The notes beneath the pieces are model-generated. The model was not told the origin of the DNA and did no database searches. It saw only the letters and a program-made list of their open reading frames with translations. This document shows positions 29,038-49,790 of a stretch of 64,000 bases of DNA, piece by piece. Position numbers and translations under genes: made by a program. Every line of letters starts with the position of its first letter. Position 1 is the first letter of the stretch. The DNA is from Methylophilus methylotrophus DSM 46235 = ATCC 53528 (GTDB taxonomy: Bacteria > Pseudomonadota > Gammaproteobacteria > Burkholderiales > Methylophilaceae). The stretch lies in the NCBI RefSeq assembly GCF_000378225.1, contig NZ_KB905141.1:759326-823325 (forward strand), in the 5' to 3' direction.

Positions 29038-29064
29038 ATAAAATCAGCAATATTTCCTAGTAAC

Positions 29065-29299: not shown

Positions 29300-29315
29300 G
29301 GGCACAAATATTGCA
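29300..29315 (+). promoter_or_regulatory. sigma-54-type -24/-12 promoter of the glycosyltransferase/TadE/CpaB unit
   Basis: GGGCAC-AAATA-TTGC-A matches TGGCAC-N5-TTGCW at 9 of 10 fixed positions, with GG and GC exactly 12 apart. The predicted start is near 29326, giving a leader of about 31 bases with GGAG at 29351-29354 before the ATG at 29357. Confidence 0.72.
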
Positions 29316-29356
29316 TTGGTTACTCACTAAAATAAATAATGGTTTCGGAGTGAGCA

Positions 29357-30052: not shown

Positions 30053-30085
30053 AACCAAGCTGTTTGCATGTAAGACACCTGCCCC

Positions 30086-31663: not shown

Positions 31664-31686
31664 ATTAATTGAATGAACGAAAAAAA

Positions 31687-32757: not shown

Positions 32758-32765
32758 CCCAATCA

Positions 32766-33104: not shown

Positions 33105-33105
33105 A

Positions 33106-33960: not shown

Positions 33961-33963
33961 TTT

Positions 33964-34917: not shown

Positions 34918-34952
34918 GGCGTCTAAAGTTGCGATACTGTCAACTTGAATGA

Positions 34953-36338
34953 TCAGAAAAGATCATGGCTCACATCTATACCTCGCTCATGCATCAGCTT
35001 CAAAAGATTTGGAATAATCCCACTTGAGCGCATCACCATTTCATCACCCTCTCTCTTGGTGACAAAAATATCTTGCATAAGCACTGTTCCCTCCTCCATT
35101 CCCGTAATTTCAGTAATATTCGATACTCGGCGGGTACCATCCGAATAGCGGTTCACGTGTACGATCAAATGCACGGCAGACGCAATCTGCTCACGCAGAA
35201 CACGCTGGGGCAAATCAAGCTCAGCCATCAACATCATGGTCTCCAGTCTGGCAAGGGTGTCGCGTGGACTATTCGAATGTAGAGTAGCCAATGAACCATC
35301 ATGGCCAGTATTCATTGCCTGCAACATATCAAGTGCCTCTGCACCTCTGACCTCGCCCACAATTATTCTGTCAGGACGCATGCGAAGCGAGTTCTTGACT
35401 AAATCCCGAATTGTAACGGAGCCCATGCCCTCTGTGTTTGCAGGTCTTGCTTCTAGTTGAACCACATGCTTTTGATTCAGTTGCAATTCAGCCGTATCTT
35501 CAATACTCACAATGCGCTCGCCTTCACCAATATGCTGCGACAAACAGTTGAGCATTGTTGTCTTACCTGAGCCCGTTCCACCTGACACGACAATATTAAG
35601 CTGAGCTTGAACAGCGAATTTTAAGAATTCCGCAGCCTCAAAAGTGAGTGCCCCACCCGCCACAAGCTCATTCACATCGAGGATATTTCGCATAAAACGT
35701 CGAATCGACATCGTGGGACCTCGTAGCGCTAGCGGTGGAATGATCACATTGACGCGGCTACCATCTGCTAACCTGGCGTCAGCCATAGGCGAAGATTCGT
35801 CTACACGTCTGCCCACTCTCGAAAGTATCCTTTCGATGGTTAACATCAGATGATCATCGTCATGAAAGTGGATATCCGTCAACTCTAATAATCCATGTTT
35901 TTCAACATAGATCTGGTGTGCTCCATTTACAAGGATGTCTGAAATCGTCCGGTCAGTCATCAGGGGTGAAAGAGGGCCCAATCCCATTACCTCGTAAATC
36001 AAGTCCTCGACCAGACGGCTACGTTCAATTCTGGTGAGCGGCATGGCTTCTTGGGCTAAAGCATTATTGACATACTCTTTCACAGCCACTTCAATCTGTT
36101 CCAGCGTCGCCACACTGACTGCCTGCGGATTGAGCATTTCAATCAAAGACTTATGTAATCTGTGACGAATTTCTGCATATGAAGAAGCCTGACTATTTTG
36201 CGGTTGTTTGGTCGTCAGTAAATTTGACTCCAGAGTTGTTTGCCCAAGCGCGACCAAACGTTCAGATAACAAGTTATATTGATTGGTCTCTTGTTTCCTG
36301 AGCTCAGTTCTTAAATTATTGACTTGCTCTTCAGACAT
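34953..36338 (-). CDS. cpaF: Tad pilus assembly ATPase CpaF (TadA)
   Basis: A 461-residue secretion ATPase of the PilT/VirB11 type. Seen: RLVEDLIYEVMGLGPLSPLM, Walker A VSGGTGSGKTTMLN near residues 257-270, the Asp box IVSIEDTAELQL, and Walker B/His box RMRPDRIIVGEVRGAEALDM then GHDGSLATLHSNSPRD. It powers Flp pilus polymerisation and possibly retraction. It directly abuts cpaE. Confidence 0.96.
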   Translation of the reverse strand: MSEEQVNNLRTELRKQETNQYNLLSERLVALGQTTLESNLLTTKQPQNSQASSYAEIRHRLHKSLIEMLNPQAVSVATLEQIEVAVKEYVNNALAQEAMPLTRIERSRLVEDLIYEVMGLGPLSPLMTDRTISDILVNGAHQIYVEKHGLLELTDIHFHDDDHLMLTIERILSRVGRRVDESSPMADARLADGSRVNVIIPPLALRGPTMSIRRFMRNILDVNELVAGGALTFEAAEFLKFAVQAQLNIVVSGGTGSGKTTMLNCLSQHIGEGERIVSIEDTAELQLNQKHVVQLEARPANTEGMGSVTIRDLVKNSLRMRPDRIIVGEVRGAEALDMLQAMNTGHDGSLATLHSNSPRDTLARLETMMLMAELDLPQRVLREQIASAVHLIVHVNRYSDGTRRVSNITEITGMEEGTVLMQDIFVTKREGDEMVMRSSGIIPNLLKLMHERGIDVSHDLF

Positions 36339-37538
36339 TTAAATATCCATCCAGTTTTTAAATTGACGAGCATATCTTTCAAACACCGTTTCACTCACCT
36401 CAGGCTCCATTTCGGAGCCAGCAATTTTTGCCACCAGTTGGTTCACTGCTGCAGTGATACGCCGATCTGGATACATTTGGGAATAAGCACGCCCTGTATT
36501 TGTGGCAATCGTGGCATGTACATCATAAGGAATAATGCTATCAATAGGCCAAGCAAGTGCCTCTGCACAAAGGTCTGGTGTAATATTGCCTTGAAAATCA
36601 GTGTAGCGATTCAAAACAACTCTGATACGTTTTTCCCCGTAGCCAGCTTGCTGCAAAATATCCAGATTATGTTTGGCACTCCTCAGTGAAGGCACAACAG
36701 CCTCTGTCACAAGAACAATCTCATCACACAAATCCATCAAGGATAAATTAAGGCTGGAGAGTAATGGAAAGGTATCAACAACTGTCCATTTGAATGCGCC
36801 CTTGGAGACAAGTAATATCTTTGTAAGCTGATCTTCTGTGTAATCCACACCAAGTGGATCATTGGTATTGTGTGCTAACACATGCACGCCACTCTGCTCG
36901 TGAAGTGTCATAAAATCGGATAACAACTGATTATCAAGACGTTTATACTCGGCAACTGCATCCTTCAACCATCTTTGTGGCCTCAAATCAAGCATGGGCG
37001 CAACATTCGGTGCCTGGATGTTTGCATCAATCAAAGCGACACTGGCTTCACCGTAGAGTTTGGCAAGACCAATTGCGATATTGCATGATAGAGAGGTTTT
37101 GCCGACACCGCCTTTGCTTGAAAAACACATAACAGATTTACCTGTGCGAGCGGGCTGAATGATCGCCTGCTCGCTTTGCATATGCATCGCTTTTTCAATG
37201 ATGGCAAAAACCTCTTCGTCCATGACGGGTTGGAGAAGCACCTCACCTGCACCAGTGCGAATAGCTCTTGCCATTAAATCAGCACCCATTTTATCGGCAC
37301 TGACAGCAACCAACCGATTTCTGACATTGGCTAACTGCTCAAGCGTCAGCATGCCAGCCTCATGATTTCGTGTCAGATCCAAGAAGACCAATTGCGCTTC
37401 AAACTGCAATGCCAGTTCAATGCCCTGGCCCATTGTTTCTGCCGTTCTCAAGCTCACCGCAGCATTGCCAAATCTTAGGCATGCTGCTTGCACTTGCTGC
37501 CTAAAAGCTTGATGAGCACTGATGATCAGTATACGCAT
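36339..37538 (-). CDS. cpaE: Tad pilus localisation protein CpaE/TadZ
   Basis: A 399-residue protein: an N-terminal receiver-like domain (MRILIISAHQAFRQQVQAAC, LVFLDLTRNHEAGM) followed by a ParA/MinD ATPase with deviant Walker A SSKGGVGKTSLSCNIA near residues 138-153 and ALIDANIQAPN. CpaE/TadZ proteins mark the pole and recruit the assembly machine. The receiver domain keeps an Asp (LDL) but is probably a pseudo-receiver, as in other TadZ proteins. Confidence 0.93.
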   Translation of the reverse strand: MRILIISAHQAFRQQVQAACLRFGNAAVSLRTAETMGQGIELALQFEAQLVFLDLTRNHEAGMLTLEQLANVRNRLVAVSADKMGADLMARAIRTGAGEVLLQPVMDEEVFAIIEKAMHMQSEQAIIQPARTGKSVMCFSSKGGVGKTSLSCNIAIGLAKLYGEASVALIDANIQAPNVAPMLDLRPQRWLKDAVAEYKRLDNQLLSDFMTLHEQSGVHVLAHNTNDPLGVDYTEDQLTKILLVSKGAFKWTVVDTFPLLSSLNLSLMDLCDEIVLVTEAVVPSLRSAKHNLDILQQAGYGEKRIRVVLNRYTDFQGNITPDLCAEALAWPIDSIIPYDVHATIATNTGRAYSQMYPDRRITAAVNQLVAKIAGSEMEPEVSETVFERYARQFKNWMDI

Positions 37539-37542
37539 AGCA

Positions 37543-38196
37543 TTATTCCCCAGTTCTGGCGTGACTGATGCTGACTGACACCTCTTTTTGATCCATTACG
37601 GATTGAAGCTCCTTTTTTGTGGGATCTATCAGGTGGTATGGTGCAATTCGGATCGCTTCAGCATAGGCTGCAATTGCACGATTCTTTAAGCCAAGAGCCG
37701 CCAGAACACGTGCATTGAGTCTGCGGACCTTGAAATCTTGTGGCGCTAACTGGGTAGCTAAAATACTTGGAGACAAAGCATCACCAAATGCCTGCCTATC
37801 TCCAGACTTACCGAGCTTGTAATAAGACTGTGCGATCTGCGCATGCCAAATAGCAGAGTTAGGTTCAAACTCTGAGAGTTTTTTATAATGCTCAATCGCC
37901 TCTTCGAAGGTTTCAGCTGCAAAAGCGCAATCTGCAATCAATTTATGCGCCAGTGGAACCTGTGTTTTATCCTGGCTTAGAATGAGGTCTGGAATATGCT
38001 TTTTTAACCTGGCCTGAATGGCCGGGCACTTTGCTTTAGCAAGCTTAGGATTTTTTACGAGCGCTTCCACCTCGGGCTTATGCTTCTCAAGCATGGTTTC
38101 AGAAACTGCAGTCCCCCAGTTCTTTAAAAAGGTGGCGACGAAAAAAATCACCAACACAAACAAACTACCCACTAATAACTTTGTTTTTTTAGTCAT
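37543..38196 (-). CDS. TPR protein of the Tad operon (TadD-like)
   Basis: A 217-residue protein with one N-terminal membrane helix (LLVGSLFVLVIFFVATFLK) and two or three tetratricopeptide repeats (AAETFEEAIEHYKKLSEFEP, IWHAQIAQSYYKLGK, then AALGLKNRAIAAYAEAIRIA). TadD in other systems is a TPR outer-membrane lipoprotein; this one has no lipobox and is probably inner-membrane anchored. It lies in the operon between the lipoprotein and cpaE. The order of genes suggests a TadD-like scaffold role. Confidence 0.75.
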   Translation of the reverse strand: MTKKTKLLVGSLFVLVIFFVATFLKNWGTAVSETMLEKHKPEVEALVKNPKLAKAKCPAIQARLKKHIPDLILSQDKTQVPLAHKLIADCAFAAETFEEAIEHYKKLSEFEPNSAIWHAQIAQSYYKLGKSGDRQAFGDALSPSILATQLAPQDFKVRRLNARVLAALGLKNRAIAAYAEAIRIAPYHLIDPTKKELQSVMDQKEVSVSISHARTGE

Positions 38197-38216
38197 GTCA
38201 CTACCGACTTACACGA

Positions 38217-38978
38217 TTAATTCATCTGATAAAAAGGATCATTAAAAGCATCCGATGATTTATTTCTCGATGCTGGTAGATACAAGTGCTTGTCTATTCG
38301 ATTGGCATAGTAAATATCGGTTGTTCTACTGATAAAAACTCCTTTATCCACAATGGAAGATGTCATGATGATTTCCATGTTGGGCGCTAAGTTAAAATCT
38401 CCCACATCTAATGCAGCACCAGTTGCCAATAATGAACCGTCCACCCCAAGAATATCGCCGATATTCCTAATGACTACCAAACCCGCGGCCAGACTGGTAA
38501 ATTTGTATTTATCACTGGTCAGAGTAGTTCTTAAAGAGTTGTACTCAATCATTTGTATTTTGTAGTTGTAAATATAACTACCTGGCTTTTGCGTACTGAC
38601 TTTAATACCTTTTTGTACAAGGGCAGTAATCAGAAAATCATTGAAGGCCGTTGTGAAGGGAGTCTGTCTGGTTTGTAAATGAATATAAATAGGTTTTTTA
38701 TCCAGCTTTTTTTCTTGAATGGTGGCAATCAGTTGCGTCACCATATCTTCGGCCACTAGTTGCCACTGTTTTGAAGATTGAATTTGGCCCTGATGCTCAC
38801 CTTCTACATCAACATTTTCAGGAGTCGGTGCCGAGGGTGTGGATGGCATCGCGAAGCGTGATACACAGCCAGTTAAGTCAAGCATTAAGTTGCACATGGC
38901 AATCAACATGATGAGTTTAGTACGTTTATAGAAAGCTTTTAAATGATTCATAAGGTGCATTTCGAAATCCATCATCAT
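38217..38978 (-). CDS. Tad-locus lipoprotein, paralogue of 48577-49302
   Basis: A protein of up to 253 residues with a lipoprotein signal ending in LMLDLTGC, so membrane-attached through that Cys. The start at 38978 overlaps the cpaC stop (ATGA); a start at 38951 (MNHLKAFYKRTK) is also possible. The body (TQLIATIQEKKLDKKPIYIH, FNDFLITALVQKGIKVSTQK, EIIMTSSIVDKGVFISRTTD) is similar in arrangement to the lipoprotein at 48577. In the operon it occupies the place where other Tad loci have RcpB, which partners the secretin. The exact family is not known to me. Confidence 0.7.
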   Translation of the reverse strand: MMMDFEMHLMNHLKAFYKRTKLIMLIAMCNLMLDLTGCVSRFAMPSTPSAPTPENVDVEGEHQGQIQSSKQWQLVAEDMVTQLIATIQEKKLDKKPIYIHLQTRQTPFTTAFNDFLITALVQKGIKVSTQKPGSYIYNYKIQMIEYNSLRTTLTSDKYKFTSLAAGLVVIRNIGDILGVDGSLLATGAALDVGDFNLAPNMEIIMTSSIVDKGVFISRTTDIYYANRIDKHLYLPASRNKSSDAFNDPFYQMN

Positions 38979-41218
38979 TCACGTCCGTCTGGCTGCTTGG
39001 ACAAAATTTCTACAGCACCGGGTGAAAATGGCAGCAGTGATGCTGAGGCGGCCAAACGGGAGTTTGCAGGGTCTTTACCTAAGAAAACGGCTTTATTTAA
39101 ATCATTCATAGTATTCAGTTGCAAACGCTCTTGGGCGGAATGGGAAGCCACTAGAGGTTTACTTTCTGGCGCCTCGTGACTCACCACGTTAGCTGACTGT
39201 ATGGGAAGGGTTTCTTGGCTACTTGCAACAAGATTGAGATGTTGATTTTTTGCAGCCACATTTTCAAACTCCTGGTAAAAAATTACCCTTCCTTCAATAC
39301 GCTTGGATGGAGTCACCGGTTGATAAAGGGTGATCACTGACTGTCCTGAATGATTTGGTGTAATCACAGCAGGCAAAGTCGTATCAGTTGCTTTAGCAGG
39401 AGCGACCATGGGCACCTGATCTGAGCCACTTATATTGTCGTCACGGATGACAGGCGGCGGTTGTACCTTCGGCAAATCAAGCGTTTGCCGTTTTTTCGTA
39501 GGCTTGGTCAATGGGTTTGCTTGCGGCCTGGCTACTGGTTTACTTCTTGATGGCGCCATTACTTCAGATGACTCCGCACTTTCTTCAGGCAATGAAGAAT
39601 CGCTAGACTCATCTGATGGCTGCCCTGAAGGGGCAAGATCCCCTTCTTCCTCAAAGCTGGTTTTGGTTTGATTCTCCCCCTCGATAACCCTGGCATTGAC
39701 CAATATCATCAGCTCGTTTCTGGATTTGGCATCATTTGTATTTTTAAATAACCAACCGAGGACCGGAACATTGGATAGCCACGGAACCTGAGAGGCACTT
39801 TTGGTGCTTTCTTCAGACAACAAACCTGCTACTGCCCAAGTTTCACCACTTGCAGATTCCGTTAAGGTACTCACCGAGCGCTGATTAAATCCCGGGATTC
39901 TGGCACCTAGCAAGGTAATAGCTTGGGAGTAGTCTGGCTCGGAAATGGACTGATCTAGTACAATCGATATCTTGCCGTTTTCAAGCACGGTCGGCCTCAC
40001 AATAAGTTTGAGTCCAAACTGAATAAAACGGACGTTTGTCGCAGTAGTGGCGGTGACTTGATTAACAGTCTGGGTCTGGACTGGAATCGGAATATTACCA
40101 CCCACCAGAAAACTAGCCGACTCACCACTCACTGCTGTGACCAGGGGATTGGAAAGTGTCTTGGCCGCGCCTTTTTGTTGTAGAAAGCGCATGAATGCTG
40201 ACAAAGCATATTTGCCGGGATTATTCACAAACGCAAAAATGGATGAGTTACCTGGATCGAACCCATCGTTGGCCAATTGATCAGGGCTGGAACCGCCTGA
40301 GGGAGAGACATCTCCCAACACGCTACCCACAGTCACTGTTTTACCTCCGCTTTGGGTATCCAACCGCCAATCAATACCATAAGAATCCGTTTTATTACGG
40401 TCTATGCCAATGATTTGCATCTGAATCTCAACCTTGGGTTGTTTGGCTACCTTTATCATGCTCATGACCTTGCCATTCCCCACAACGATCACCTCTCCGC
40501 GCGAGAGATTTTGCGCAAGGTTGCCCTTAATAGGCATTAAAGGTTGAGTAAGCGCTCTCGCGATATTGCCGTTAGCACTACTGGCGCCATTTTGGCCGTT
40601 GCCACCACCTCCGCCTGCATTACCAGCACCCTGACCAGTGCCGCCCACATTGATCTGAGGCACCGCAATTCTAGGATCTGGAGAAACTCCCACAATTTCC
40701 TCGTTGTTGCCAGTTTGGCTTTCATTCAAGTTGCCTGACAATACGCCGCCATGGTCGCTGATGACTGAAAAACTTGGGGGAAGAGCATTACCGGTCACAA
40801 ACCGGTCAGCAATTGTTAACACTCTGGAAAGCGCCGTCGGTGTAGATACAGTGCCTTTTAGGACAATAATGCCGTTCAGATCCTCGACAGTCACCTTTTT
40901 TTCCAAGTTAGCAATCATGCTCCTGAGCTGGAAAATATCATTGACCACCTGAATACGATACTCATCGATGCTGCCAGACTTATTGAACACCGTTAATGAA
41001 GTCGCGCCGGTATCCTGACCATTGATCATCAGCAGTTCAGGCTTTAATGTATTCACGCCAATAACGCCTGGATCACCAATTGCAATCGTCTCGGCTGGCT
41101 CCGATAGCTTCAAAGGCTTGGAAAAACCCTTGGAAATAGAAATGACGCTAAGAGGGGCTGCCTGCAAAAGATGCGGCCACACCCCCAGGCACATAAAAAC
41201 TATGATCCTAGTGAACAT
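38975..41218 (-). CDS. cpaC: Tad pilus secretin CpaC/RcpA with a long C-terminal tail
   Basis: A 747-residue outer-membrane secretin. Order: signal peptide (~1-21), pilus-assembly N domain with AIGDPGVIGVNTLKPELLMI, a BON domain at ~100-170 (VEDLNGIIVLKGTVSTPTAL), a Gly/Asn-rich linker at ~190-215, and the secretin domain at ~255-510 (VEIQMQIIGIDRNKTDSYGI, VSGESASFLVGGNIPIPV, then SQVPWLSNVPVLGWLFKN). About 220 Ser/Pro/Glu-rich residues follow, absent from typical secretins of ~450-550 residues. It forms the pilus channel. There is no clear ribosome site before the ATG. A sigma-54-type promoter lies 32 bases upstream. Confidence 0.93.
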   Translation of the reverse strand: MFTRIIVFMCLGVWPHLLQAAPLSVISISKGFSKPLKLSEPAETIAIGDPGVIGVNTLKPELLMINGQDTGATSLTVFNKSGSIDEYRIQVVNDIFQLRSMIANLEKKVTVEDLNGIIVLKGTVSTPTALSRVLTIADRFVTGNALPPSFSVISDHGGVLSGNLNESQTGNNEEIVGVSPDPRIAVPQINVGGTGQGAGNAGGGGGNGQNGASSANGNIARALTQPLMPIKGNLAQNLSRGEVIVVGNGKVMSMIKVAKQPKVEIQMQIIGIDRNKTDSYGIDWRLDTQSGGKTVTVGSVLGDVSPSGGSSPDQLANDGFDPGNSSIFAFVNNPGKYALSAFMRFLQQKGAAKTLSNPLVTAVSGESASFLVGGNIPIPVQTQTVNQVTATTATNVRFIQFGLKLIVRPTVLENGKISIVLDQSISEPDYSQAITLLGARIPGFNQRSVSTLTESASGETWAVAGLLSEESTKSASQVPWLSNVPVLGWLFKNTNDAKSRNELMILVNARVIEGENQTKTSFEEEGDLAPSGQPSDESSDSSLPEESAESSEVMAPSRSKPVARPQANPLTKPTKKRQTLDLPKVQPPPVIRDDNISGSDQVPMVAPAKATDTTLPAVITPNHSGQSVITLYQPVTPSKRIEGRVIFYQEFENVAAKNQHLNLVASSQETLPIQSANVVSHEAPESKPLVASHSAQERLQLNTMNDLNKAVFLGKDPANSRLAASASLLPFSPGAVEILSKQPDGRE

Positions 41219-41261
41219 TATTTATATTATTTTCGTATTAAAAAACCCTCGCGAGGAAGTG

Positions 41262-41277
41262 AGCAATTTCCATGCCC
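41262..41277 (-). promoter_or_regulatory. sigma-54-type promoter of the cpaC operon
   Basis: On the minus strand GGGCAT-GGAAA-TTGC-T fits KGGCAY-N5-TTGCW, with GG and GC 12 apart. The predicted start near 41251 leaves a 32-base leader before the cpaC ATG. Confidence 0.65.
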
Positions 41278-41368
41278 ATGAATTTTTCACGAACAAAATA
41301 AATAAGCCATTGATTATTATTATCTTTTTTCAAAAAGACACCCATTCAAATAGAGCTTATAAAAAACA

Positions 41369-41413
41369 AAATGGCTGCTATCAATCACCACTGGTGGTTG
41401 ATAGCAGCCATTT
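41369..41413 (-). terminator. strong terminator of the 38-codon gene
   Basis: AAATGGCTGCTATCAA (41369-41384) pairs perfectly with TTGATAGCAGCCATTT (41398-41413), and the loop CACC-ACT-GGTG closes further. On the minus strand the stem is followed by TGTTTTTTATAAG. It lies about 30 bases after the small gene's stop codon and ends its message before the cpaC promoter. Confidence 0.88.
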
Positions 41414-41442
41414 GAAAATAAAGGAGCGGCTAAATACGAATA

Positions 41443-41559
41443 CTAATGAAAGAATGGCAAGTGCATCATTTCCTGAAAAACCTCTCCCAAGACAGAGGCA
41501 AACCATAAACCCAACCCCACCAGCCCTGAAGACAAAATAGCATGTTCAATGACAGTCAT
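41443..41559 (-). CDS. 38-residue hydrophobic small protein in the Tad locus
   Basis: An ATG at 41557-41559, preceded by AAGGA (41569-41573, 9 bases away), opens a 38-codon frame ending with TAG at 41443-41445. The protein begins MTVIEHAILSSGLVGLGLWF and continues ASVLGEVFQEMMHLPFFH: one amphipathic or membrane helix with a His/Phe-rich end. It has its own strong terminator and a possible promoter, so it looks like an independent small gene. I know no family. It could be a membrane peptide that modulates the pilus machine, or a tiny pilin-like subunit, though it lacks the G/XXXXEY motif. Confidence 0.6.
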   Translation of the reverse strand: MTVIEHAILSSGLVGLGLWFASVLGEVFQEMMHLPFFH

Positions 41560-41663
41560 TTTATTATTTCCTTTCAACATTCAATAAAAATCAACGAGCG
41601 TGATTTAAATGAAATATCGTCAACATTTACTCAAACTTGAGTCGTTGAAAGTCAGAAGTAGCG

Positions 41664-41679
41664 TGCTAATTTTCAGCCA
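41664..41679 (-). promoter_or_regulatory. weak sigma-54-like element before the 38-codon gene
   Basis: On the minus strand TGGCTG-AAAAT-TAGC-A keeps GG and GC 12 apart but deviates at three other positions. It could equally be an activator site, since GCTGAAAATTAGC is a partial palindrome. Confidence 0.3.
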
Positions 41680-41696
41680 AGCACAACCACCATCTT

Positions 41697-41710
41697 GGTT
41701 ATTAATAACC
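41697..41710. promoter_or_regulatory. palindrome upstream of the flp promoter
   Basis: GGTTATTAATAACC is a perfect 14-bp palindrome centred about 120 bp upstream of the flp -24 element, a normal distance for a sigma-54 activator site. It shares the pattern GGYTRWWWWYARCC with the palindrome at 29203-29218. Confidence 0.5.
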
Positions 41711-41822
41711 AGTCAATATTGATTTATTCAAGTGAATAAAAAAACACGACCTGGAAGCAGGTTTCCAATAAGCCATTGAAATATAAAATAATTTCAAAAA
41801 AATATTTTACTTTTTCATCAGC

Positions 41823-41838
41823 TGGCACATCAATTGCT
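41823..41838 (+). promoter_or_regulatory. sigma-54-type promoter of flp
   Basis: TGGCAC-ATCAA-TTGC-T is a full match to the -24/-12 consensus TGGCAC-N5-TTGCW. The predicted start near 41849 gives a 155-base leader before the flp ATG at 42004. Confidence 0.85.
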
Positions 41839-41895
41839 GTATAGCTGGCACACACGTCGGGGTGAGCGTTATTCAAAAATTGATAACCGTGTGTC

Positions 41896-41947
41896 GGGAT
41901 GTTGCCATCCTCCCCTATTACAAAAACAGGTAATTGTGGCAACACCC
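41896..41947 (+). promoter_or_regulatory. structured leader of the flp mRNA
   Basis: GGG-A-TGTTGCCA (41896-41907) pairs with TGGCAACA-CCC (41937-41947), enclosing an inner ATTAC/GTAAT hairpin (41917-41934). It lies between the predicted flp transcription start and start codon and may control stability or translation. It matches no riboswitch I recognise. Confidence 0.45.
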
Positions 41948-42003
41948 GCACAGGGACCTGGAGACTTTAATTGTTAATGGGTGGTTATCTTTTGGAGAGA
42001 AAA

Positions 42004-42336
42004 ATGATTGAAAATGTAAAAAACTTCCTGCAGGACGAAGAAGGCCAGTCCATGGTTGAATATGGTGTAACACTGGGTGCTGTTGCAGCCGTGTCTTACA
42101 TTGCAGTGGTTCAACTGGGTGACAAAACTGCCGACCTGTACAGCTGGATGGCTAACCACTTGCCAGGTGGCGAAACGGGTGAAAATGGTACTAACCAGAT
42201 TGTTCGCCTGGAGAGCGACGGCCTCGTTCAATTGAGTGGTTCTGACGACGGTGCCGTATTTAGTACAGATGACATCTTGGCCTCAGGCAACATGAAGACC
42301 ACTTTGGGTAGCGAAGCCAATATCCTCGGTGACTAA
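42004..42336 (+). CDS. flp: Flp type IVc major pilin
   Basis: A 110-residue prepilin: short charged leader MIENVKNFLQDEEG, cleavage predicted at G/QSMVEY, then the hydrophobic helix GVTLGAVAAVSYIAVVQLG. The Flp motif G/XXXXEY is intact. The C-terminal ~65 residues (Gly/Asn/Ser/Asp-rich, ending EANILGD) make it longer than the common 50-75 residue Flp pilins and offer many Ser/Asn sites. GGAGAG sits just before the ATG at 42004; the frame extends to 41971 but that start is less likely. A strong terminator follows, so the pilin message is probably far more abundant than the downstream genes. Confidence 0.93.
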   Translation: MIENVKNFLQDEEGQSMVEYGVTLGAVAAVSYIAVVQLGDKTADLYSWMANHLPGGETGENGTNQIVRLESDGLVQLSGSDDGAVFSTDDILASGNMKTTLGSEANILGD

Positions 42337-42369
42337 GTATTTTATATCTTAGGATACTTAATACAACCC

Positions 42370-42405
42370 ATGCCGCCAGCGGTTTACCGTTGGCGGCATT
42401 TTTAT
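42370..42405 (+). terminator. terminator between flp and the peptidase gene
   Basis: ATGCCGCCAGCGG (42370-42382) pairs with CCGTTGGCGGCAT (42387-42399), followed by TTTTATATA. It probably sets a high pilin-to-peptidase ratio through partial read-through. Confidence 0.9.
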
Positions 42406-42417
42406 ATAGAGTCCATC

Positions 42418-42993
42418 ATGTCATTCGAATTCTTTATTGTTGCACTACTTACAGGATTGATCATCTTGTCGGCATTGGTAGCAGTGCATGATTACCGATT
42501 CCGCCGGATTCCAAACCGATACCTATTCTGGGCCACGACATACGCCATGTGTGTGTATGTCAGCATGCTTTTCTTCTTGCCCTTTAATATCGTACTTAAA
42601 GGTTTTTTATACAGCTTGCTTGGCACCTTAACAGCAGGCTTGTTTTTTTACATGCCCTATAAACTCAAACAGGTGGGCGCTGGTGACGTCAAGCTGGTCA
42701 TGGTGTTTGGATTATTTCTGGGATTCAAAGGCGTGATTCTGGCAATTCTGCTGGGCGCAATGGTGGGTGGTGTCTGGGCGCTCACATTGGCATGGCATCA
42801 CGGCGGCCTCTCTCATCTTTGGTACAACATGAAATTCATGGCCAGGTCTATGTATCTCTCAGGTTTTAAAGAGATGAATTGGGACTTAAGGTCGGAGGGC
42901 GCAATTGCGATGCCTTATGGCGTTGCGTTATCCGCCGGGGCCATCATGATCGCGACTGAACAATTACTCATGCATATTCAGCGTATTTCATAA
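42418..42993 (+). CDS. cpaA: prepilin peptidase TadV/CpaA
   Basis: A 191-residue, roughly six-helix aspartic peptidase of family A24 that cleaves Flp and TadE-type prepilins. Active-site aspartates are visible in AVHDYRFRRIPN (near residue 24) and in the GxGD motif VGAGDVKLVMVFG. I use the ATG at 42418 after the terminator hairpin; the frame runs back to 42370. It lacks the N-terminal methylase domain of PilD, as usual for TadV, and is somewhat longer than the ~150-170 residues of many TadV proteins. Confidence 0.92.
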   Translation: MSFEFFIVALLTGLIILSALVAVHDYRFRRIPNRYLFWATTYAMCVYVSMLFFLPFNIVLKGFLYSLLGTLTAGLFFYMPYKLKQVGAGDVKLVMVFGLFLGFKGVILAILLGAMVGGVWALTLAWHHGGLSHLWYNMKFMARSMYLSGFKEMNWDLRSEGAIAMPYGVALSAGAIMIATEQLLMHIQRIS

Positions 42994-43005
42994 AGGAATC
43001 AAACC

Positions 43006-46000
43006 ATGACATCCACTCAGCAGGTATTTGAAAATGAAGTGGCAAACTCGTGGAAAGCCATTTTCAAACAAGATGTAGCGCAAGCGATGACACATGCCAA
43101 AAAAGCTTCAATCATCGCCCCTGACTCACCAGAGGTTGCTCACCTGTTGGGAGTAATTGCCTGTAGAGATCAACGACCGGATCTGGCGCTGCCATTACTA
43201 CAGAAGGCTTTGAATGGCGGTGCGACAGAACGTCGGTTGCGTGATATGGCAGAAGCACTTTTAAGCGCGGGACATCCGCAGGAAGCACTTAAACCGATTT
43301 CAGACGCGTTGTTACAATTTGGTGAGTCTCCAGCTTTGCTGGGGTTAAAAGCTGCAATTGAGGTCGCACTGGAACAATTTGCACAAGCAGAAAAAACAGC
43401 CATGCAGGCGGTAACCCTCGCTCCCCATCAAATGGCATGGGAGACAACAGCAGCATTCTGCCAGTTGATCAATCAACAGATATATTCTGGCTTACAGTTA
43501 TTCACGGCAAGACCAGAGAATCTGCCCGCAGGCAGTCGCTGTCCATCATTACAATTTATGCAACCGGGTGATATCTGGTTAAAAAATGAGCAAGGCCCCG
43601 GCGACACCATGTTTTATCTGCGATATGCGGTGCATTTAAAACACCAAGGATTTCGTCTACATATTCAGGCAGATAAAAAAACAAAACCGTTGCTGAAGAA
43701 CAGCGGATTGTTTGAGAGTGTGAAAGAAAATATCGCTATTCCTTATGACGGCTTCTGGTTGAACATGGGTGACTTGCCCTTGGCAGCCATGCAGCGTGGT
43801 GCCCCAGCCTACCTTGATGCTTTGCCATTGACCGCAGACCCACAACGGGTAGAAAAGATCATGTCCAGACTTGCCCAGTTTGGTCCCGGGCCTTATGTCG
43901 CCGTGACTTGGAGGGCAGGCGCAAGAGGCAAAAAACACAGACAGGGTTTTCATAAGTATGACAAGCATATTGATCCTGCCGCACTAGGTCAGGTGCTTGC
44001 AGATAAAAAATGTACCGTGGTATGCATCCAGCGTGTGCCTGAAGCAGATGAGATTCAGGCCTTTGAACATGCGCTTAGCAGACCATTTTTGAATTACGCG
44101 CACTTGAACGACCAGCTTCAGGACATGCTGGCATTGCTAACTGTCGTTGATTTATATGTCACTGTACCAAATACGAATGTGCACCTGAGGCAATCGCTAA
44201 AAAAAGACATGTTGGTATTGTTAAACAGACCTTGGCAAGACTGGCGATGGCTTGCCGAAGGGAATAGTCCCTGGTATCCGAATGCGAACGTGTTAAGGCA
44301 ATCAGCCAATCATGAATGGGGCGATGCTTTAAAAACCTTGAATAAGGCTTTGTGCGAGCATCTGCCGCATAAGATAACGCCTGAGTGCAATTTGATAGTG
44401 AATAGCGAGCCGATTCATCACGCTCATGAAACAAATCAATCAGTATTGTCTGAAAACATAAATCATGCACAGATTAGTGAGTTGCTCGCACCTGGTTGGA
44501 GTGCGATCAATCAAGGTCTGGTGAGTGAGGCAATACGTGTTGCTCAGGAAGTCTTGCAACAATATCCAGACCAGCCGGATGCTCTTCATCTGCTTGGATG
44601 GGCGGCTCATCGTGATCTGAAAAGTGAGCTGGCTGCCGGTTTATTGGAACGAGCGGTCAGTCTGGCGCCTGAGAATGGCCGTCTGCTGGCAAACCTGGTG
44701 AGGGTATTCGTCGCACAAAAGCAATTCGCTAAAGCTGAACAAGTACTTGATCAAGCTCTGCGAGAAAGTTTTGTCACCCCAAAGGCTGCTTTAATCGCAG
44801 CTAGAGCAGTGTTAAGACTGCAGCAAAACCGTATTCCGGAAGCAGTGCGAGACTATGAGGATTGCCTGACCGCGTCTCCTTATAGTCTTGATGTGATGGC
44901 TTATATGGGAATGGCAAAACTAAAAGTTGGTGATACGAAATCTGGCTTTAGAGCCTATTCTGCCAGACAAGAGGCAAGGACCAAGGATAGAGTCTCTGGG
45001 TTTGTATGCCCCTGGTTGAAAGGTAATCTATCTGGCTTAAAAGTATTGATCAAACGTGATATGGGATTGGGAGACGAACTCACGTTTTTACGTTATTTGC
45101 CGTGGCTGACATCTGCTGGCGTAGAAGTCACTTATTGGGCCGGAAAAAAGCTGGCACCCGTCTTGAGACGCATGAATTACGTACATACGGTGATTCCTGA
45201 CGACGAACCTCTACCTGACCCGAATATCTTTGATCTTACTTTCTGGGTGAATGAACTCCCACTCGCCGTTCAGTATTTGGATGCGCCAGATATTGCACCG
45301 CCACTTAAATTAACTCCACGTCTGGACCTTGTAGAAAAATGGCGTGACTGGCTCAAATCACAAGGAGATGGCCCTTTTATTGGTATTAACTGGCAGGCAG
45401 GAGCAAGTGCCGGTGGAATGGCCGAAGCATTTAGTAAGCTGGCAAAACAAATCAATCCAGAAATGTTTGCACGCGCACTTCGTGGTATCAATGCTCAGTT
45501 TCTATCATTACAGAGAAATGTCACAAAACAAGCAATTCAATCGTTTGAAAACCACCTAGATACCAAGGTAATTGATGTTGCCTCTATCACAGATGATATT
45601 GAGGATTTACTCGCCCTGCTCTCCTTAATCAATGAGAATGTAGGCGTTTCAAATACTAATATGCATTTAAGAGCAAGTCTTGGATTAAACTCAAGAGTTC
45701 TTGTGCAGTGTCCAAGTGGTGACTGGCGTTGGGGTTACCAAGGTGCCCGATCAGCATGGTTCACAGATGCAACTATCTACAGAGAAGACCTGGCAAACCA
45801 CTGGGAACCCGCACTGACATCACTTCGTGCCGACCTGCTTGCAAAATATGGTGCATGTGAGACGACTCCTGAGTTACAGGCCAAACACAGTACCTACTTA
45901 CATTCTGAACCTAAGATTGTGTGGGTGACGGCAGGTCATATCCAGAATACAGTGGCCGGGCTCAGTTCAGACTTGGCTAGCACTAGGTATCGGGTCATTT

Positions 46001-47469
46001 CACCCATGCAGGCATTAAGTGACCATGGTTGGAAAAGTGAAATTTTAAACGAGCATGTGTCACGTAATGTAGGTGGATGGCATGGTAAAACCCCGGTCGA
46101 GGGGGACACCGTGATCATATCCAAGGTATTTACTGAGCATGCCATCAAACTGGCCGAAGATGCCAAAAATCGCGGCGCACAAGTAATTGTCGATTTTTGT
46201 GACAATCACTTGTCTCATCCGACACGTGGTCAGTTACAGCGCACCTTACTACACATAGCTGACAAAGTAGTTTGTGCTACTGACATGTTGCACCAAGCGC
46301 TCGCTGGAGTTGGCCGCGGTGCAGATGAAGTCATTGCAGATCCAATTAATACAGATAAACGTAAAGCACAATTTACCCCTAATTCAGTGATTAAGCTTCT
46401 CTGGTTTGGGCACCAGGTGAATCTGGATACGTTAATTAAATTTTTGCCTGATTTGGCAGAGTTTGCGAAACATCAGCCCCTCACCCTCAACGTCTTGACG
46501 ACGCTTGAGTCTGGATTAGAAAGCCTGTCGAAATGGATTCCGTCACACCTTGAAGTGAGCTACACACCCTGGAGTGTTGAAGCCACAAGTACAGCTCTGG
46601 AAGTTTGTGACTTGGTAGTTATCCCGACATTAGAGCATCATGCAAAATCTGCAAAAAGTGCAAACAGACTACTAGAGTCTATGCAGGCTGGAAGAATGGT
46701 GGTCGCTGGAAAGTTACCTGCCTACCTTCCCTTTGCAGATAGTGCCTGGGTGGGTGAAGACTTGATAAAAGGGATTGAATGGTGCTTAAGCCATCCTGGT
46801 GAAGTGATTCAACGCATTCAGCAAGGACAGAAAGATATTGCATCATACTTCAGCCCCGCGGCAATAGGTCAATTATGGCAACGTGTGATTTCTAATGAAA
46901 AATCGCTCACTGCAACTGCTCCAAACACCCAACCATTAAAGAAACTCAATTTGGGATGCGGTGATAAAATTTTACCGGGGTATATCAATGTAGATGTGGT
47001 GGAGAGCAGAGCAGGCAAAAATCCAGATGTACTATGTGATCTGCATAAATTAACTCCGTTTGAAGATCAATCGGTGGACGAAATTTTATCGGTACATGTC
47101 ATTGAACATTTCTGGCGATGGGAAGTGCTTGATATCCTTAAGGAGTGGACAAGAGTACTAAAACCAGGCGGACGCATGGTACTCGAATGTCCTAACCTCA
47201 AGTCGGCCTGTGAAGAGTTTCTCAAAAATCCTGACGCGGCAGCTTTTGGCGGCCCAGAAGGTCAACGCAGCATGTGGGTATTTTACGGTGACCCAAGATG
47301 GCAAGACCCTTATATGGTCCATCGATGGGGCTATACACCTGACAGTCTAGCAGCATTGATGCAACAAGCAGGGCTGGTGAATGCAAGACAAGAACCAGCG
47401 CAATATAAACTCCGTGAACCCCGTGATATGCGTATTGTTGCAGAGAAACCCAACTCGCCTAAGAAATGA
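43006..47469 (+). CDS. giant TPR-glycosyltransferase-methyltransferase fusion
   Basis: A 1487-residue soluble protein. Order: TPR-like repeats (~1-150); a GT9-like glycosyltransferase region (~180-430: NEQGPGDTMFYLRYAVHL, LTVVDLYVTVPNTNVHLRQS); a second TPR block (~490-640); a second, related glycosyltransferase region (~680-930: KRDMGLGDELTFLRYLPWL, ENVGVSNTNMHLRASLGLN); a third region (~970-1300) resembling a GT4-type glycosyltransferase (STRYRVISPMQALSDHGW, then SANRLLESMQAGRMVVAG); and a class I methyltransferase (~1310-1487: KLNLGCGDKILPGYINVD, LSVHVIEHFWRWE, RVLKPGGRMVLECPN). The TPR-GT module is clearly duplicated. It follows cpaA by 12 bases, so it is likely devoted to building or transferring a methylated glycan on the Flp pilin, like the O-GlcNAc-type and flagellin-glycosylation TPR enzymes. 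The substrate is inferred from position only. Confidence 0.82.
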   Translation: MTSTQQVFENEVANSWKAIFKQDVAQAMTHAKKASIIAPDSPEVAHLLGVIACRDQRPDLALPLLQKALNGGATERRLRDMAEALLSAGHPQEALKPISDALLQFGESPALLGLKAAIEVALEQFAQAEKTAMQAVTLAPHQMAWETTAAFCQLINQQIYSGLQLFTARPENLPAGSRCPSLQFMQPGDIWLKNEQGPGDTMFYLRYAVHLKHQGFRLHIQADKKTKPLLKNSGLFESVKENIAIPYDGFWLNMGDLPLAAMQRGAPAYLDALPLTADPQRVEKIMSRLAQFGPGPYVAVTWRAGARGKKHRQGFHKYDKHIDPAALGQVLADKKCTVVCIQRVPEADEIQAFEHALSRPFLNYAHLNDQLQDMLALLTVVDLYVTVPNTNVHLRQSLKKDMLVLLNRPWQDWRWLAEGNSPWYPNANVLRQSANHEWGDALKTLNKALCEHLPHKITPECNLIVNSEPIHHAHETNQSVLSENINHAQISELLAPGWSAINQGLVSEAIRVAQEVLQQYPDQPDALHLLGWAAHRDLKSELAAGLLERAVSLAPENGRLLANLVRVFVAQKQFAKAEQVLDQALRESFVTPKAALIAARAVLRLQQNRIPEAVRDYEDCLTASPYSLDVMAYMGMAKLKVGDTKSGFRAYSARQEARTKDRVSGFVCPWLKGNLSGLKVLIKRDMGLGDELTFLRYLPWLTSAGVEVTYWAGKKLAPVLRRMNYVHTVIPDDEPLPDPNIFDLTFWVNELPLAVQYLDAPDIAPPLKLTPRLDLVEKWRDWLKSQGDGPFIGINWQAGASAGGMAEAFSKLAKQINPEMFARALRGINAQFLSLQRNVTKQAIQSFENHLDTKVIDVASITDDIEDLLALLSLINENVGVSNTNMHLRASLGLNSRVLVQCPSGDWRWGYQGARSAWFTDATIYREDLANHWEPALTSLRADLLAKYGACETTPELQAKHSTYLHSEPKIVWVTAGHIQNTVAGLSSDLASTRYRVISPMQALSDHGWKSEILNEHVSRNVGGWHGKTPVEGDTVIISKVFTEHAIKLAEDAKNRGAQVIVDFCDNHLSHPTRGQLQRTLLHIADKVVCATDMLHQALAGVGRGADEVIADPINTDKRKAQFTPNSVIKLLWFGHQVNLDTLIKFLPDLAEFAKHQPLTLNVLTTLESGLESLSKWIPSHLEVSYTPWSVEATSTALEVCDLVVIPTLEHHAKSAKSANRLLESMQAGRMVVAGKLPAYLPFADSAWVGEDLIKGIEWCLSHPGEVIQRIQQGQKDIASYFSPAAIGQLWQRVISNEKSLTATAPNTQPLKKLNLGCGDKILPGYINVDVVESRAGKNPDVLCDLHKLTPFEDQSVDEILSVHVIEHFWRWEVLDILKEWTRVLKPGGRMVLECPNLKSACEEFLKNPDAAAFGGPEGQRSMWVFYGDPRWQDPYMVHRWGYTPDSLAALMQQAGLVNARQEPAQYKLREPRDMRIVAEKPNSPKK

Positions 47470-47478
47470 ACTGAAATC

Positions 47479-48021
47479 ATGCGCTATTCATTGCAAAACT
47501 GTCCAATTGCAACTGTAGGTCGCCACACTTATGGAAATCCTACCATTTTGCATTTCGGAGAAGCAACAAAACTTTCTATTGGAAACTTCTGTTCAATCGC
47601 GGGAGATGTCACAATTTTTCTTGGAGGAAATCACCGCACTGACTGGGTGACTACTTATCCATTTAATATCCTGTTTAAGGAGGAGTGGCCTGAAGCAGCA
47701 ACTATTACGGGTCACCCTGTATCGGATGGTGATGTGATTATTGGTCATGATGTCTGGATTGGATTTGGCAGCACCATTATGTCGGGAGTCACAATAGGTA
47801 ATGGTGCGGTGATCGCGGCCAACTCAATGGTGACAAAAGATGTCCCACCTTATGCGATCATCGGTGGCAATCCAGCAAAGTTGATCAAATACAGATTCGA
47901 TGAAGCTACTATTATCCAACTTCAATCGCTTGGCTGGTGGAACTGGCCGGATAACAAAATAAGAATATTTTTAAAGTCTCTTTGTGCTGCGCCCTCTCCA
48001 TCTTTGTTTGCCAAAGAATAA
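47479..48021 (+). CDS. hexapeptide-repeat acetyltransferase (CatB-like)
   Basis: A 180-residue left-handed beta-helix acyltransferase of the CatB/xenobiotic or NeuD-type class: KLSIGNFCSIAGDVTIFLGG, the catalytic-His region GNHRTDWVTTYPF, DVIIGHDVWIGFGSTIMSGV and PPYAIIGGNPAKLIKYRF. It starts 9 bases after the giant enzyme, so an O-acetylation step on the same glycan is more likely than antibiotic resistance. It ends the flp unit. Confidence 0.88.
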   Translation: MRYSLQNCPIATVGRHTYGNPTILHFGEATKLSIGNFCSIAGDVTIFLGGNHRTDWVTTYPFNILFKEEWPEAATITGHPVSDGDVIIGHDVWIGFGSTIMSGVTIGNGAVIAANSMVTKDVPPYAIIGGNPAKLIKYRFDEATIIQLQSLGWWNWPDNKIRIFLKSLCAAPSPSLFAKE

Positions 48022-48058
48022 GATTATTTACAGGATTGAATATTAGAGATATTTATCA

Positions 48059-48580
48059 TTAGTTTTTCAACATGCCGGTAACATCTTTAGCCATCGGGAT
48101 CGCATAACTGGCGGCTGCCAATACATGATTGGTCTCAGGTTGCACTACCTTCAAATTGACGAAAATATCCTGAGATGTCTCCACATAGGTACCAACGACC
48201 ACAGCCTGAGCGCTGACTGACTTGGCAATTTCCTTAAGCTCGCGCGTCATTAAAAACTCACCATCCTCGCGTATCATCAAGTCACCCCTGAGTTTGGGTT
48301 CAACTACCTGATACTGGAGCTGCGAGAATCTGGCCGAGACCTGCTCTGATAACAACCTGCCAAAAGTGGAAGTACGGTTTAACTGGTTCATACTGACGAC
48401 ACTGGCCACCAGCACAGGATAATCTTTTTGTACCTTACCCTGCCCAAGCTGGCCGGCCAGTTGGTCAACAGCCACCTGATTTTTCTTGATGAATTCGGTA
48501 CTGCCTAGATAACCTTTAGAATAATCCTTGTGTGTAACACATCCACTCAAGAACAACATTAAAACCAAAGCATATCTCAT
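48059..48580 (-). CDS. FlgO-like lipoprotein
   Basis: A 173-residue lipoprotein: signal MRYALVLMLFLSGC with lipobox LSGC, then NQVAVDQLAGQLG, VVSMNQLNRTSTFGRLLSEQ and EIAKSVSAQAVVVGTYVETS, which match FlgO-domain outer-membrane proteins. FlgO proteins are found with flagella, but no flagellar genes are here. Its start overlaps the stop of the next lipoprotein gene (ATGA), so the two are coupled. Confidence 0.8.
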   Translation of the reverse strand: MRYALVLMLFLSGCVTHKDYSKGYLGSTEFIKKNQVAVDQLAGQLGQGKVQKDYPVLVASVVSMNQLNRTSTFGRLLSEQVSARFSQLQYQVVEPKLRGDLMIREDGEFLMTRELKEIAKSVSAQAVVVGTYVETSQDIFVNLKVVQPETNHVLAAASYAIPMAKDVTGMLKN

Positions 48581-49302
48581 TTACCGGCTCCTACAACTTG
48601 ATACTGATGAATCAGTGGCTCTTCATTTTCTATAGCTTGATAAAGGCTGGTATCGCTATCAACAATGTAATACATGTCTTTAATGATTGCTACATAGCGA
48701 TTCTGCCTGGAAACCGTGACATCAATTACAATTTCTGTTTGCGGGGTGCCTCCTGAAAATTGATGGCTTGAGAACCAATCATACACATCATAAGCATAAA
48801 TACCTGCTGTTGCTCCGCCATAAGCAGTGGCCCCCAACCCCTTTAATGTCCATAAGCCAGTTGCGATCGCTGATGGGTAACCGATATCATGCGGTTGTTT
48901 TCGACCCTGAGAAAATTTAATAACGGTTGGATTTAATTCTATTAATACTTGATGTGCGGGTGGCACTTGCGGACTTTTTGATTTACTTTTACCAGATTCA
49001 TGTTTTAAAACTGTATATCCAGCAGCGACCAAACTGCTTACCACATCTTGGTGAAGACTCTTTGAGTAAATGGAATGAGGATCGCTGATAAAAATGACCT
49101 CCTCCTTGCCGACTTTACCCGCCAAACGATCCAGCAATTGTTTACTGACTTCATTGTTAATCAAGTCCCAATGTTTTGCGGCTTGCAATACATGTTGGTC
49201 CGTATTTTCAAAATTCTTAGCTGTAGGCACTTCAGAGTACTTCGGAGTACAAGCGCTCACCATCAAACCCATGCCGATTAGAAAAATTGTATTTGTTTTC
49301 AC
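48577..49302 (-). CDS. lipoprotein related to the Tad lipoprotein at 38217
   Basis: A 241-residue lipoprotein from a GTG at 49302 (AAGGGTGG just upstream), with signal ending GMGLMVSAC. The frame is open further up and an ATG at 49371 is an alternative that fits the predicted promoter. The body (KQLLDRLAGKVGKEEVIFIS, VVSSLVAAGYTVLKHESGK, TEIVIDVTVSRQNRYVAIIK) parallels the lipoprotein inside the cpaC operon. A Gly/Ala/Tyr-rich segment (LGATAYGGATAGIYAYDVYD) sits mid-protein. The function is unknown; an accessory to the secretin or to the FlgO-like protein is plausible. Confidence 0.7.
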   Translation of the reverse strand: MKTNTIFLIGMGLMVSACTPKYSEVPTAKNFENTDQHVLQAAKHWDLINNEVSKQLLDRLAGKVGKEEVIFISDPHSIYSKSLHQDVVSSLVAAGYTVLKHESGKSKSKSPQVPPAHQVLIELNPTVIKFSQGRKQPHDIGYPSAIATGLWTLKGLGATAYGGATAGIYAYDVYDWFSSHQFSGGTPQTEIVIDVTVSRQNRYVAIIKDMYYIVDSDTSLYQAIENEEPLIHQYQVVGAGK

Positions 49303-49402
49303 TGCGCCACCCTTAATTGATCGGTTCAATACAGCCACCAAAAAAATAATTTTATGGTTGTTTACACCCATAAAATAGTTTCTTTTATGCTCACTCTTTC
49401 CA

Positions 49403-49419
49403 TTGCAAAAAATATGCCC
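49403..49419 (-). promoter_or_regulatory. sigma-54-type promoter of the lipoprotein pair
   Basis: On the minus strand GGGCAT-ATTTT-TTGC-A fits KGGCAY-N5-TTGCW, with GG and GC 12 apart. The predicted start is near 49393, 90 bases before the GTG at 49302 or 22 before the ATG at 49371. Confidence 0.6.
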
Positions 49420-49543
49420 TTCTGACCATTGCCATACACTAATCAAAATGGATATCACTTATAAGGGCACTTCAAAGAGCCAATTCAGACAAGCGGCACC
49501 TCTAAACTCTTTTAAAGACTCTGGCGGCACTGCCTTACCTCCC

Positions 49544-49637
49544 GTCATACCGGCGAAGGCCGGTATTCAGTGACGTTAATATCTTGTAAATAGCTCTTAA
49601 ATGTTTAAAAATAGATACCGACTTATGTCGGTATGAC
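49544..49637. repeat. paired REP-like hairpins with terminal inverted repeat
   Basis: Two hairpins, ATACCGGC/GCCGGTAT (49547-49566) and ATACCGAC/GTCGGTAT (49615-49634), are bounded by GTCATACCG and CGGTATGAC in inverted orientation, giving a 94-bp BIME-like unit. The gap 49459-49790 otherwise holds only the terminator at 49740. Confidence 0.65.
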
Positions 49638-49739
49638 AGCGTAAGGCGCAACCTTGACAGTATGGGATGGTTTGTCACTTGCCCATGATATGGGTCACGA
49701 AAATGGTAATAAAAGTTGAATAAATAGAAGTAACGATAA

Positions 49740-49768
49740 AAAAACCCGCCATATGAATTGGCGGGTTT
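49740..49768 (-). terminator. terminator of the Bax-inhibitor-1 family gene
   Basis: AAAACCCGCCA (49740-49750) pairs perfectly with TGGCGGGTTTT (49758-49768), with further T residues on the minus-strand side. Confidence 0.88.
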
Positions 49769-49790
49769 TACAATGCTGGTGACCAATAAA

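Follow-up and report, generated by a model that had tools for sequence, protein, structure and literature searches.

Tad pili are widespread and are used for adhesion. Where pilins are O-glycosylated by PglL or TfpO, a membrane ligase works with a lipid-linked glycan, and pilin glycosylation is encoded beside the pilin. FlmG, the flagellin O-glycosyltransferase of Caulobacter crescentus, is a soluble protein in which a tetratricopeptide repeat (TPR) part, joined to a GT-B glycosyltransferase (GT) part, binds the filament subunit; both parts are needed and O-glycosylation takes place in the cytoplasm (PMC7591256). HMW1C/NGT is reported to glycosylate an exported adhesin in the cytoplasm (PMC3012730), and RcpC has been implicated in Flp glycosylation (PMC12307814). 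No transferase for Flp glycosylation is named in the accessible portions of the open-access literature that we searched. Here we analyze a 64,000-nucleotide stretch of the genome of Methylophilus methylotrophus DSM 46235 = ATCC 53528 (contig NZ_KB905141.1; the window), which holds a Tad pilus locus and, directly behind flp and tadV, an open reading frame (ORF) for a fusion enzyme with two TPR-GT modules in tandem. On balance, we favor the reading that this enzyme is part of a TPR-guided, cytoplasmic glycosylation machine that is reserved for the Tad pilus, has Flp as its probable target and adds an exchangeable terminal decoration. TPR-GT enzymes are known, and so, independently, is the glycosylation of pilins; as far as we searched, the tandem fusion, its bond to long Flp and its exchangeable C-terminal domain are new in the open-access literature.

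A preliminary description of this DNA had read the polypeptide as two TPR-GT modules, a third GT region and an S-adenosylmethionine (SAM)-dependent methyltransferase, and this architecture is confirmed by Pfam matches, alignment and structure models. The hexapeptide acetyltransferase that it placed after the fusion and the separate GT8-like gene that it noted at 29357 are also recognized by Pfam (Table 1). Homologues of the fusion in seven other genomes are 47–55% identical to it, and because of this conservation at about 50% identity we dropped the idea that the ORF is a chance or frameshift artefact. In an alignment of 14 modules from seven genomes, modules 1 and 2 are only ~30% identical, whereas the window's module 1 is 48–60% identical to module 1 of the six other genomes. 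Thus, the duplication is older than the split of the lineages. Fifty columns are invariant across the 14 modules, including GxGD (197–200), W302, QR (342–343), TNxHxR (390–395) and DWRW (412–415); because they span both modules, a degenerate second module was likewise dropped. Thirteen positions are fixed within each module type but differ between modules 1 and 2, a sequence pattern which suggests two working sites with different tasks.

To assign the fold, module 2 was modeled, and module 1 was assigned by alignment. The top PDB structures for the module 2 model are SPINDLY and O-GlcNAc transferase (OGT); for the catalytic half, the best fit among the matches listed is 3tov, a GT9. The model of the third GT region was poor (predicted local distance difference test, pLDDT, 49 for residues 955–1487) yet resembles the GT-B enzymes LanGT2, SenB and BshA; only this GT-B resemblance was used, and the methyltransferase part of the model was disregarded. 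A sequence search of the PDB matched only the TPR part among the best 60 of 201 matches, and a hydropathy scan found no transmembrane (TM) segment in the fusion. An N-terminal TPR superhelix followed by a GT-B catalytic part is the arrangement of TPR-GT protein O-glycosyltransferases, and the fusion would, by this likeness, transfer sugar to Ser/Thr of a bound protein. FlmG, compared by description, differs in having one module in 596 amino acids, in its use of flagellin and pseudaminic acid, and in carrying no fused GT4 or methyltransferase domain (PMC7591256). HMW1C/NGT resembles the proposed system as a soluble transferase for a secreted protein, and differs in N-linkage, substrate and the use of a single enzyme.

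In a survey of 187 genomes of Methylophilaceae, the fusion query gave ten matches at E≤1e-30, eight with the tandem TPR-GT part; the remaining two are a methyltransferase alone (G052) and one diverged module (G188). The order flp-tadV-fusion is found in all eight tandem-enzyme genomes, with the end of the fusion cut by the contig in G200. Lipopolysaccharide or capsule clusters without flp, which the preliminary description had named as the setting that would speak against its proposal, are not where the enzyme mostly lies. The Flp query matched in 17 genomes, comprising the same eight at E<1e-40, G188 at 5e-24 and eight ordinary Flp proteins at 4e-5 to 8e-4. A TPR-GT is close by at 10 of the 14 long-Flp places in the family, and neither a TPR-GT nor GT41 was found at any of 17 Tad loci with ordinary Flp (ORFs of 55–102 amino acids; all nine family places and the eight strongest of 13 outside), in fetched stretches of which some are cut by contig ends. 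This null result stays sound because an over-sensitive GT41 query would, if anything, have over-called. The tandem fusion was found in 3 of 399 genomes of the order sample, all within the family, and in 1 of 354 of the phylum sample, the window's own genome; none was found outside the family in the sampled genomes.

The ninth long-Flp genome, G188, has one tad operon with the order flp, GT41 OGT (E 3e-51), single TPR-GT, acyltransferase, tadV, tadE, cpaB. Genuine GT41 (OGT-family) genes are present in three related tad loci, those of G188, G183 and G012, and add to the likeness with OGT/SPINDLY that lies in the predicted TPR + GT-B fold of module 2. Additionally, a second flp of G012 stands beside a TPR-GT (opposite strand, two overlapping frames), and tadA, cpaC and tadV were not found around it in the fetched 18.5 kb. 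G188 was also seen to carry five flp copies or pieces on five contigs (L072–L076), with a conserved N-terminal part and tails that differ in the three tailed ones.

The N-terminal part of the fusion is constant, and the C-terminal domain has been exchanged between lineages. Each TPR-GT module is 48–60% identical to the window's counterpart in the seven relatives. Behind the modules, the window's enzyme carries its methyltransferase and that of G004 a GT4 and a second group-1 GT (Glycos_transf_1). Among the other C-termini, that of G027 comprises GT4, a region GT2-like by eye and Methyltransf_23; that of G023 (the G045 counterpart is 91% identical) half a GT4 plus a region that Pfam does not match and that is GT2-like by eye; that of G012 half a GT4, a GT4 and a methyltransferase; and that of G183 a GT4 with a TOD1_MUCI70-type GT. 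Downstream genes change as well: G027 and G023 have an AT3-type acyltransferase, G183 has a UDP-sugar dehydrogenase and a GT41 OGT, and the ~15 kb downstream in G004 hold sugar genes together with ABC transporters and a 150-amino-acid ORF similar to the window acetylase over 43 residues. The methylated, acetylated glycan of the preliminary description is in keeping with this strain alone; relatives other than G012 have other C-terminal domains. Near the fusion in G023 and G045 we also observed 7–8-TM proteins without Pfam match (L036:5232-6821, L037:13516-15081), whose first TM is followed by an acidic DE pair, a trait that by eye suggests a likeness to GT-C transferases.

Of 399 genomes of the order, 51 carry GT8 homologues, at 52 places in all, and the 51 stretches other than the window's own (fetched at 4–20 kb) contain a TPR-GT in 27, within ~10 kb of the GT8 homologue, a GT4 in 11 and either in 32. 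No TPR-GT or GT4 was found in 20 control stretches, one each from 20 of the same genomes, and a link between TPR-GT and GT8 is supported by this difference. A wider count, 38 of 51 with any of three partners, was not used since its GT41 query also catches plain TPR proteins; at the second G012 locus, called GT41 by script, Pfam shows TPR only, and a GT41-type match also appeared in one of the 20 control stretches. In G501, matches to TPR-GT, GT8, GT4 and methyltransferase occupy distinct reading frames within a single 20-kb stretch, and in Dongia deserti, the sole relative from a contig scan, TPR-GT, GT8 and GT4 lie within ~10 kb. Thus, the enzyme joins in one chain parts that are elsewhere encoded by neighboring genes.

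In the reading that we favor, the soluble fusion would use its TPR superhelices, in the manner of FlmG, to bind a freshly made pilus protein, for which the long-tailed Flp prepilin is the most likely candidate. The two OGT/SPINDLY-like modules of the fusion would place first sugars on Ser/Thr and/or elongate them; lengthening of the chain would fall to the GT8 enzyme and the GT4-like domain, and capping to the C-terminal methyltransferase and separate acetyltransferase. The N-terminal part would serve as the constant recognition and priming part, and exchange of the C-terminal domain and downstream genes between lineages would alter the sugar at the outer end. Transfer straight from sugar nucleotides to protein is favored because of the GT41 OGTs in three loci and the example of FlmG. 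Flp is a plausible acceptor; activity, acceptor, step order and cytoplasmic timing are inferred, whereas domains, gene order, linkage to long flp, C-terminal exchange, the island and the hairpin are observed. A narrower form is put forward only tentatively, and we lean against it: the prepilin would be glycosylated in the cytoplasm before or during insertion by a multi-enzyme fusion in which the modules for recognition and priming stay constant and the C-terminal capping domain can be exchanged, and the glycotype would change by domain swapping within the island.

Several points weigh against this reading in either form. On insertion, the tail of a type IV-class prepilin comes to lie outside, and a tail of 50 residues is the last part to leave the ribosome. 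With its substrate's tail outside the cytoplasm, a soluble enzyme would need to act before or during insertion, and we know of no precedent for such action on type IV-class pilins. The eight tandem-enzyme genomes belong to only three genera, so their co-occurrence does not amount to eight independent events. No TPR-GT was found in the stretches fetched around four further flp copies of G188 (three are at contig ends), and the same holds for G109 and G309, of another family, whose long Flp is 64–71% identical. The tad loci of G109 and G309 hold a Wzy_C/Wzy_C_2 protein of PglL type, as does that of G188. Tails in G109 and G309 have 5 and 7 Ser/Thr versus 7–14 in nine family copies (tails cut out by script), a difference too small to rest on. 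At the GT8 loci, 19 of the 51 stretches have neither TPR-GT nor GT4, and in two of these (G012, G023) the fusion sits just beyond the fetched stretch. Finally, the fusion differs from OGT/SPINDLY in that neither Glyco_transf_41 nor Glyco_transf_9 of Pfam matched it at E 0.1, and TM-scores of the module 2 model to full OGT/SPINDLY chains are low (~0.3); the modeled likeness is one of shared architecture and not of close superposition. Our confidence in both forms is held down by the topology objection, which is serious, and by the PglL-like ligases in three related loci.

The tad and sugar genes, with two small genes, form an accessory island, most of which is more diverged than the DNA on either side. 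The two flanking genes, PsiE (28016) and the gene at 50590, are 22.0 kb apart in G000, the window's own genome, and 39.7 kb apart in G004 (genus g1). The same flanks are 1.5–8.4 kb apart in 12 other g1 genomes with both on one contig (the 1.5 kb case is G018, where the contig breaks off inside the PsiE match); in G012 the island and PsiE are on different contigs. Ten of the 12 were fetched, and nine of these have, where the island would lie, an unrelated set made up of an ORF of 846–901 amino acids and smaller ones; the set that was scanned, that of G013, is a TonB receptor and three PEP-CTERM proteins. None of the scanned tad, GT8, GT4 or TPR-GT genes was found in the ten fetched genomes. Between G000 and G004, flank proteins are 84–100% identical except that at 52619 (62%), and the two small far-end genes (48059–49458) are 90–92% identical. 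Island identities fall from GT8 (95%), TadA (90%), TadZ (81%), Flp (77%) and TadC (71%) through the CpaD-like protein (64%, part), CpaC (62%), tadV (58%), TadB (57%) and the fusion (54%, aligned part) to TadE (52%), CpaB (48%), the TPR protein (47%) and DUF192 (44%). Thus, the two genomes share GT8 and the site, and most tad and glycan genes have been replaced or are fast evolving.

TadE-like (52%) and RcpC (48%) are among the most diverged of these genes and vary like the fusion, which would suit an enzyme that acts on some other exported Tad component, be it the 525-residue TadE-like protein, RcpC/CpaB, the secretin or the island lipoproteins; some TPR-GTs in other families, moreover, adjoin porin-like genes, which encode larger exported proteins. 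We consider this unlikely, since the tandem fusion stands next to flp-tadV in 8 of 8 genomes and the second G012 flp has a TPR-GT neighbor without recognizable tad genes.

Since the tad loci of G188, G109 and G309 each encode a PglL-like protein, another alternative is that the products of the transferases are assembled on a lipid, and that a membrane ligase of the PglL/TfpO kind moves the finished glycan to the pilin in the periplasm. Such a route would remove the topology problem, and the 7–8-TM proteins without Pfam match near the fusion in G023 and G045 would be in keeping with it. The placement of the genes beside the pilin is a likeness to PglL/TfpO systems. The island of G000 differs from those systems in that no membrane O-ligase (Wzy_C with Wzy_C_2 or PglL_A) was recognized in it; the single Wzy_C protein found in the genome lies ~590 kb from the fusion, with no Wzy_C_2 or PglL_A recognized in it, and TPR-OGT-like modules are typical of direct protein glycosylation. 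We rank this route next, as another improbable one. Least probable is that the fusion makes a surface polysaccharide or lipopolysaccharide decoration unrelated to the pilus and is linked to it by joint island travel: genes of the kinds usual in polysaccharide clusters (GT2, GT61, HAD, nucleotidyltransferase, aminotransferase and AT3/SGNH acyltransferase) do occur in the G004 island, between fusion and flank, but 8 of 8 genomes preserve the adjacency to flp-tadV although their other genes vary, the TPR modules and the GT41 OGTs found alongside suggest that the acceptors are proteins, and no Wzx/Wzy-like gene was recognized among the G000 island genes.

Additionally, the Tad/Flp locus of the window is complete, with Flp, TadV, secretin, TadA, TadB, TadC, TadZ and RcpC all present. 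The Flp_Fap, TadE and RcpC matches are below the Pfam cut-offs, and these calls are backed by gene order and homologues. The Flp start was set at the ATG 42004, not the TTG 41971, by homologue comparison; the predicted cleavage is at G/QSMVEY, in line with the cleavage motif of Flp. For tadV, codon 17 (42418) is the most likely start, as homologue alignments begin at residues 13–22, mostly 16–17. No sugar-nucleotide synthesis gene was recognized among the island genes scanned, and the term self-contained, used of the system in the preliminary description, was given up.

Table 1. Features of the Tad and glycosylation island, in coordinates of the window
Feature	Position	Strand	Basis and remarks
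Accessory island (tad, sugar genes, two small genes)	~29040..49790		flanks 28567 and 49791; flank distances
GT8-type glycosyltransferase	29357..30052	+	at one island end; Glyco_transf_8 E 9.9e-6
TadE-like protein, 525 aa	30086..31663	+	TadE E 0.0013, below cut-off; one N-terminal TM, 21–53
CpaB/RcpC	31669..32757	+	SAF E 9.3e-8; RcpC E 6e-4, below cut-off
DUF192, TadC, TadB, TadA, TadZ, TPR protein (TadD-like), CpaC secretin	within 32766..41218	-	Pfam
CpaD-like protein	within 32766..41218	-	by position; no Pfam match
Long Flp prepilin	42004..42336	+	homologues; Flp_Fap E 0.0015, below cut-off; TM, then ~50-residue tail
Terminator-like hairpin and T run	42370-42399	+	13 bp stem, 9 GC; between flp and tadV
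TadV prepilin peptidase (A24)	42418..42993	+	Peptidase_A24 E 2e-13; corrected start
TPR-GT/methyltransferase fusion, 1487 aa	43006..47469	+	ATG start, open throughout
Fusion, module 1 (TPR + GT)	43006..44385	+	residues 1–460; Pfam TPRs and alignment
Fusion, module 2 (TPR + GT)	44461..45855	+	residues 486–950; model mean pLDDT 82.6; best PDB matches SPINDLY/OGT
Fusion, GT4-like GT-B domain	45898..46905	+	residues ~965–1300; Glyco_trans_1_4 E 0.0043, below cut-off
Fusion, SAM-dependent methyltransferase	46927..47445	+	residues ~1308–1480; Methyltransf_11 E 7.6e-11; exchangeable C-terminal domain
Hexapeptide-repeat acetyltransferase	47479..48021	+	Hexapep E 6e-11; Vat/CatB-like, far below those cut-offs
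FlgO-like small gene	48059..48580		E 1e-39; far island end
Weakly CpaD-like small gene	48577-49458		G004 counterpart 20% identical to this locus's CpaD-like protein

The preliminary description also placed the fusion in the flp transcription unit. The fusion stands directly behind flp-tadV (gaps of 12 bp from tadV to fusion and 9 bp from fusion to acetyltransferase), but the hairpin at 42370–42399 splits flp from tadV, and read-through would be needed. Across the whole region, terminator-like sites are not in excess (five versus a shuffle mean of 7.0), and this hairpin is notable by stem length alone. A hairpin of ≤ -14 kcal/mol with at least four T in the next eight bases, differing in sequence, follows 11 of 14 flp copies, a count made without a shuffle control; the second G012 flp copy (-6.7) and G188 C97 (-9.2) have weak hairpins, and G309 has none. 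This pattern is as expected for pilin made in excess and enzymes made by read-through, and suggests such an arrangement.

With a candidate enzyme set, a defined pilin variant and natural swaps, the locus opens the glycosylation of pili to testing. Should Flp prove to be the target, pilins would join flagellin and adhesins as substrates of glycosylation in the cytoplasm, and a clear question of topology would arise. The swaps suggest that the sugar pattern of the pilus coat changes by exchange of enzyme modules, and a constant head with a swappable tail would be a natural model for multi-enzyme glycan engineering.

Single-module relatives elsewhere were looked at unsystematically; several are near porin-like or GT8 genes and others have no recognizable context. 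TPR-GT genes of other families in the order, at times in runs of several, lie beside porin-like genes (L103, L104, L108, L110, L115, L120), which were recognized by eye or by similarity to one identified by eye; these clusters are possible porin glycosylation systems. On two viral contigs (L082:4419-5762, L083:4419-5756) a TPR-GT is followed by a hexapeptide-repeat protein and, further on, by a large terminase-like gene, both recognized by eye, perhaps a phage-borne glycosylation cassette; these two distant viral TPR-GTs served only as extra alignment rows. The host probably lives on one-carbon compounds. Its genome has a ribulose monophosphate (RuMP) pathway hexulose-phosphate synthase above cut-off, as do 2 of 14 control genomes. 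Lastly, the host carries a second TPR-GT (L042:9417-11240; C1 ~659.4-661.2 kb), a single-module protein of 607 amino acids with a Glyco_transf_9 match, which lies amid housekeeping-type genes, away from flp.

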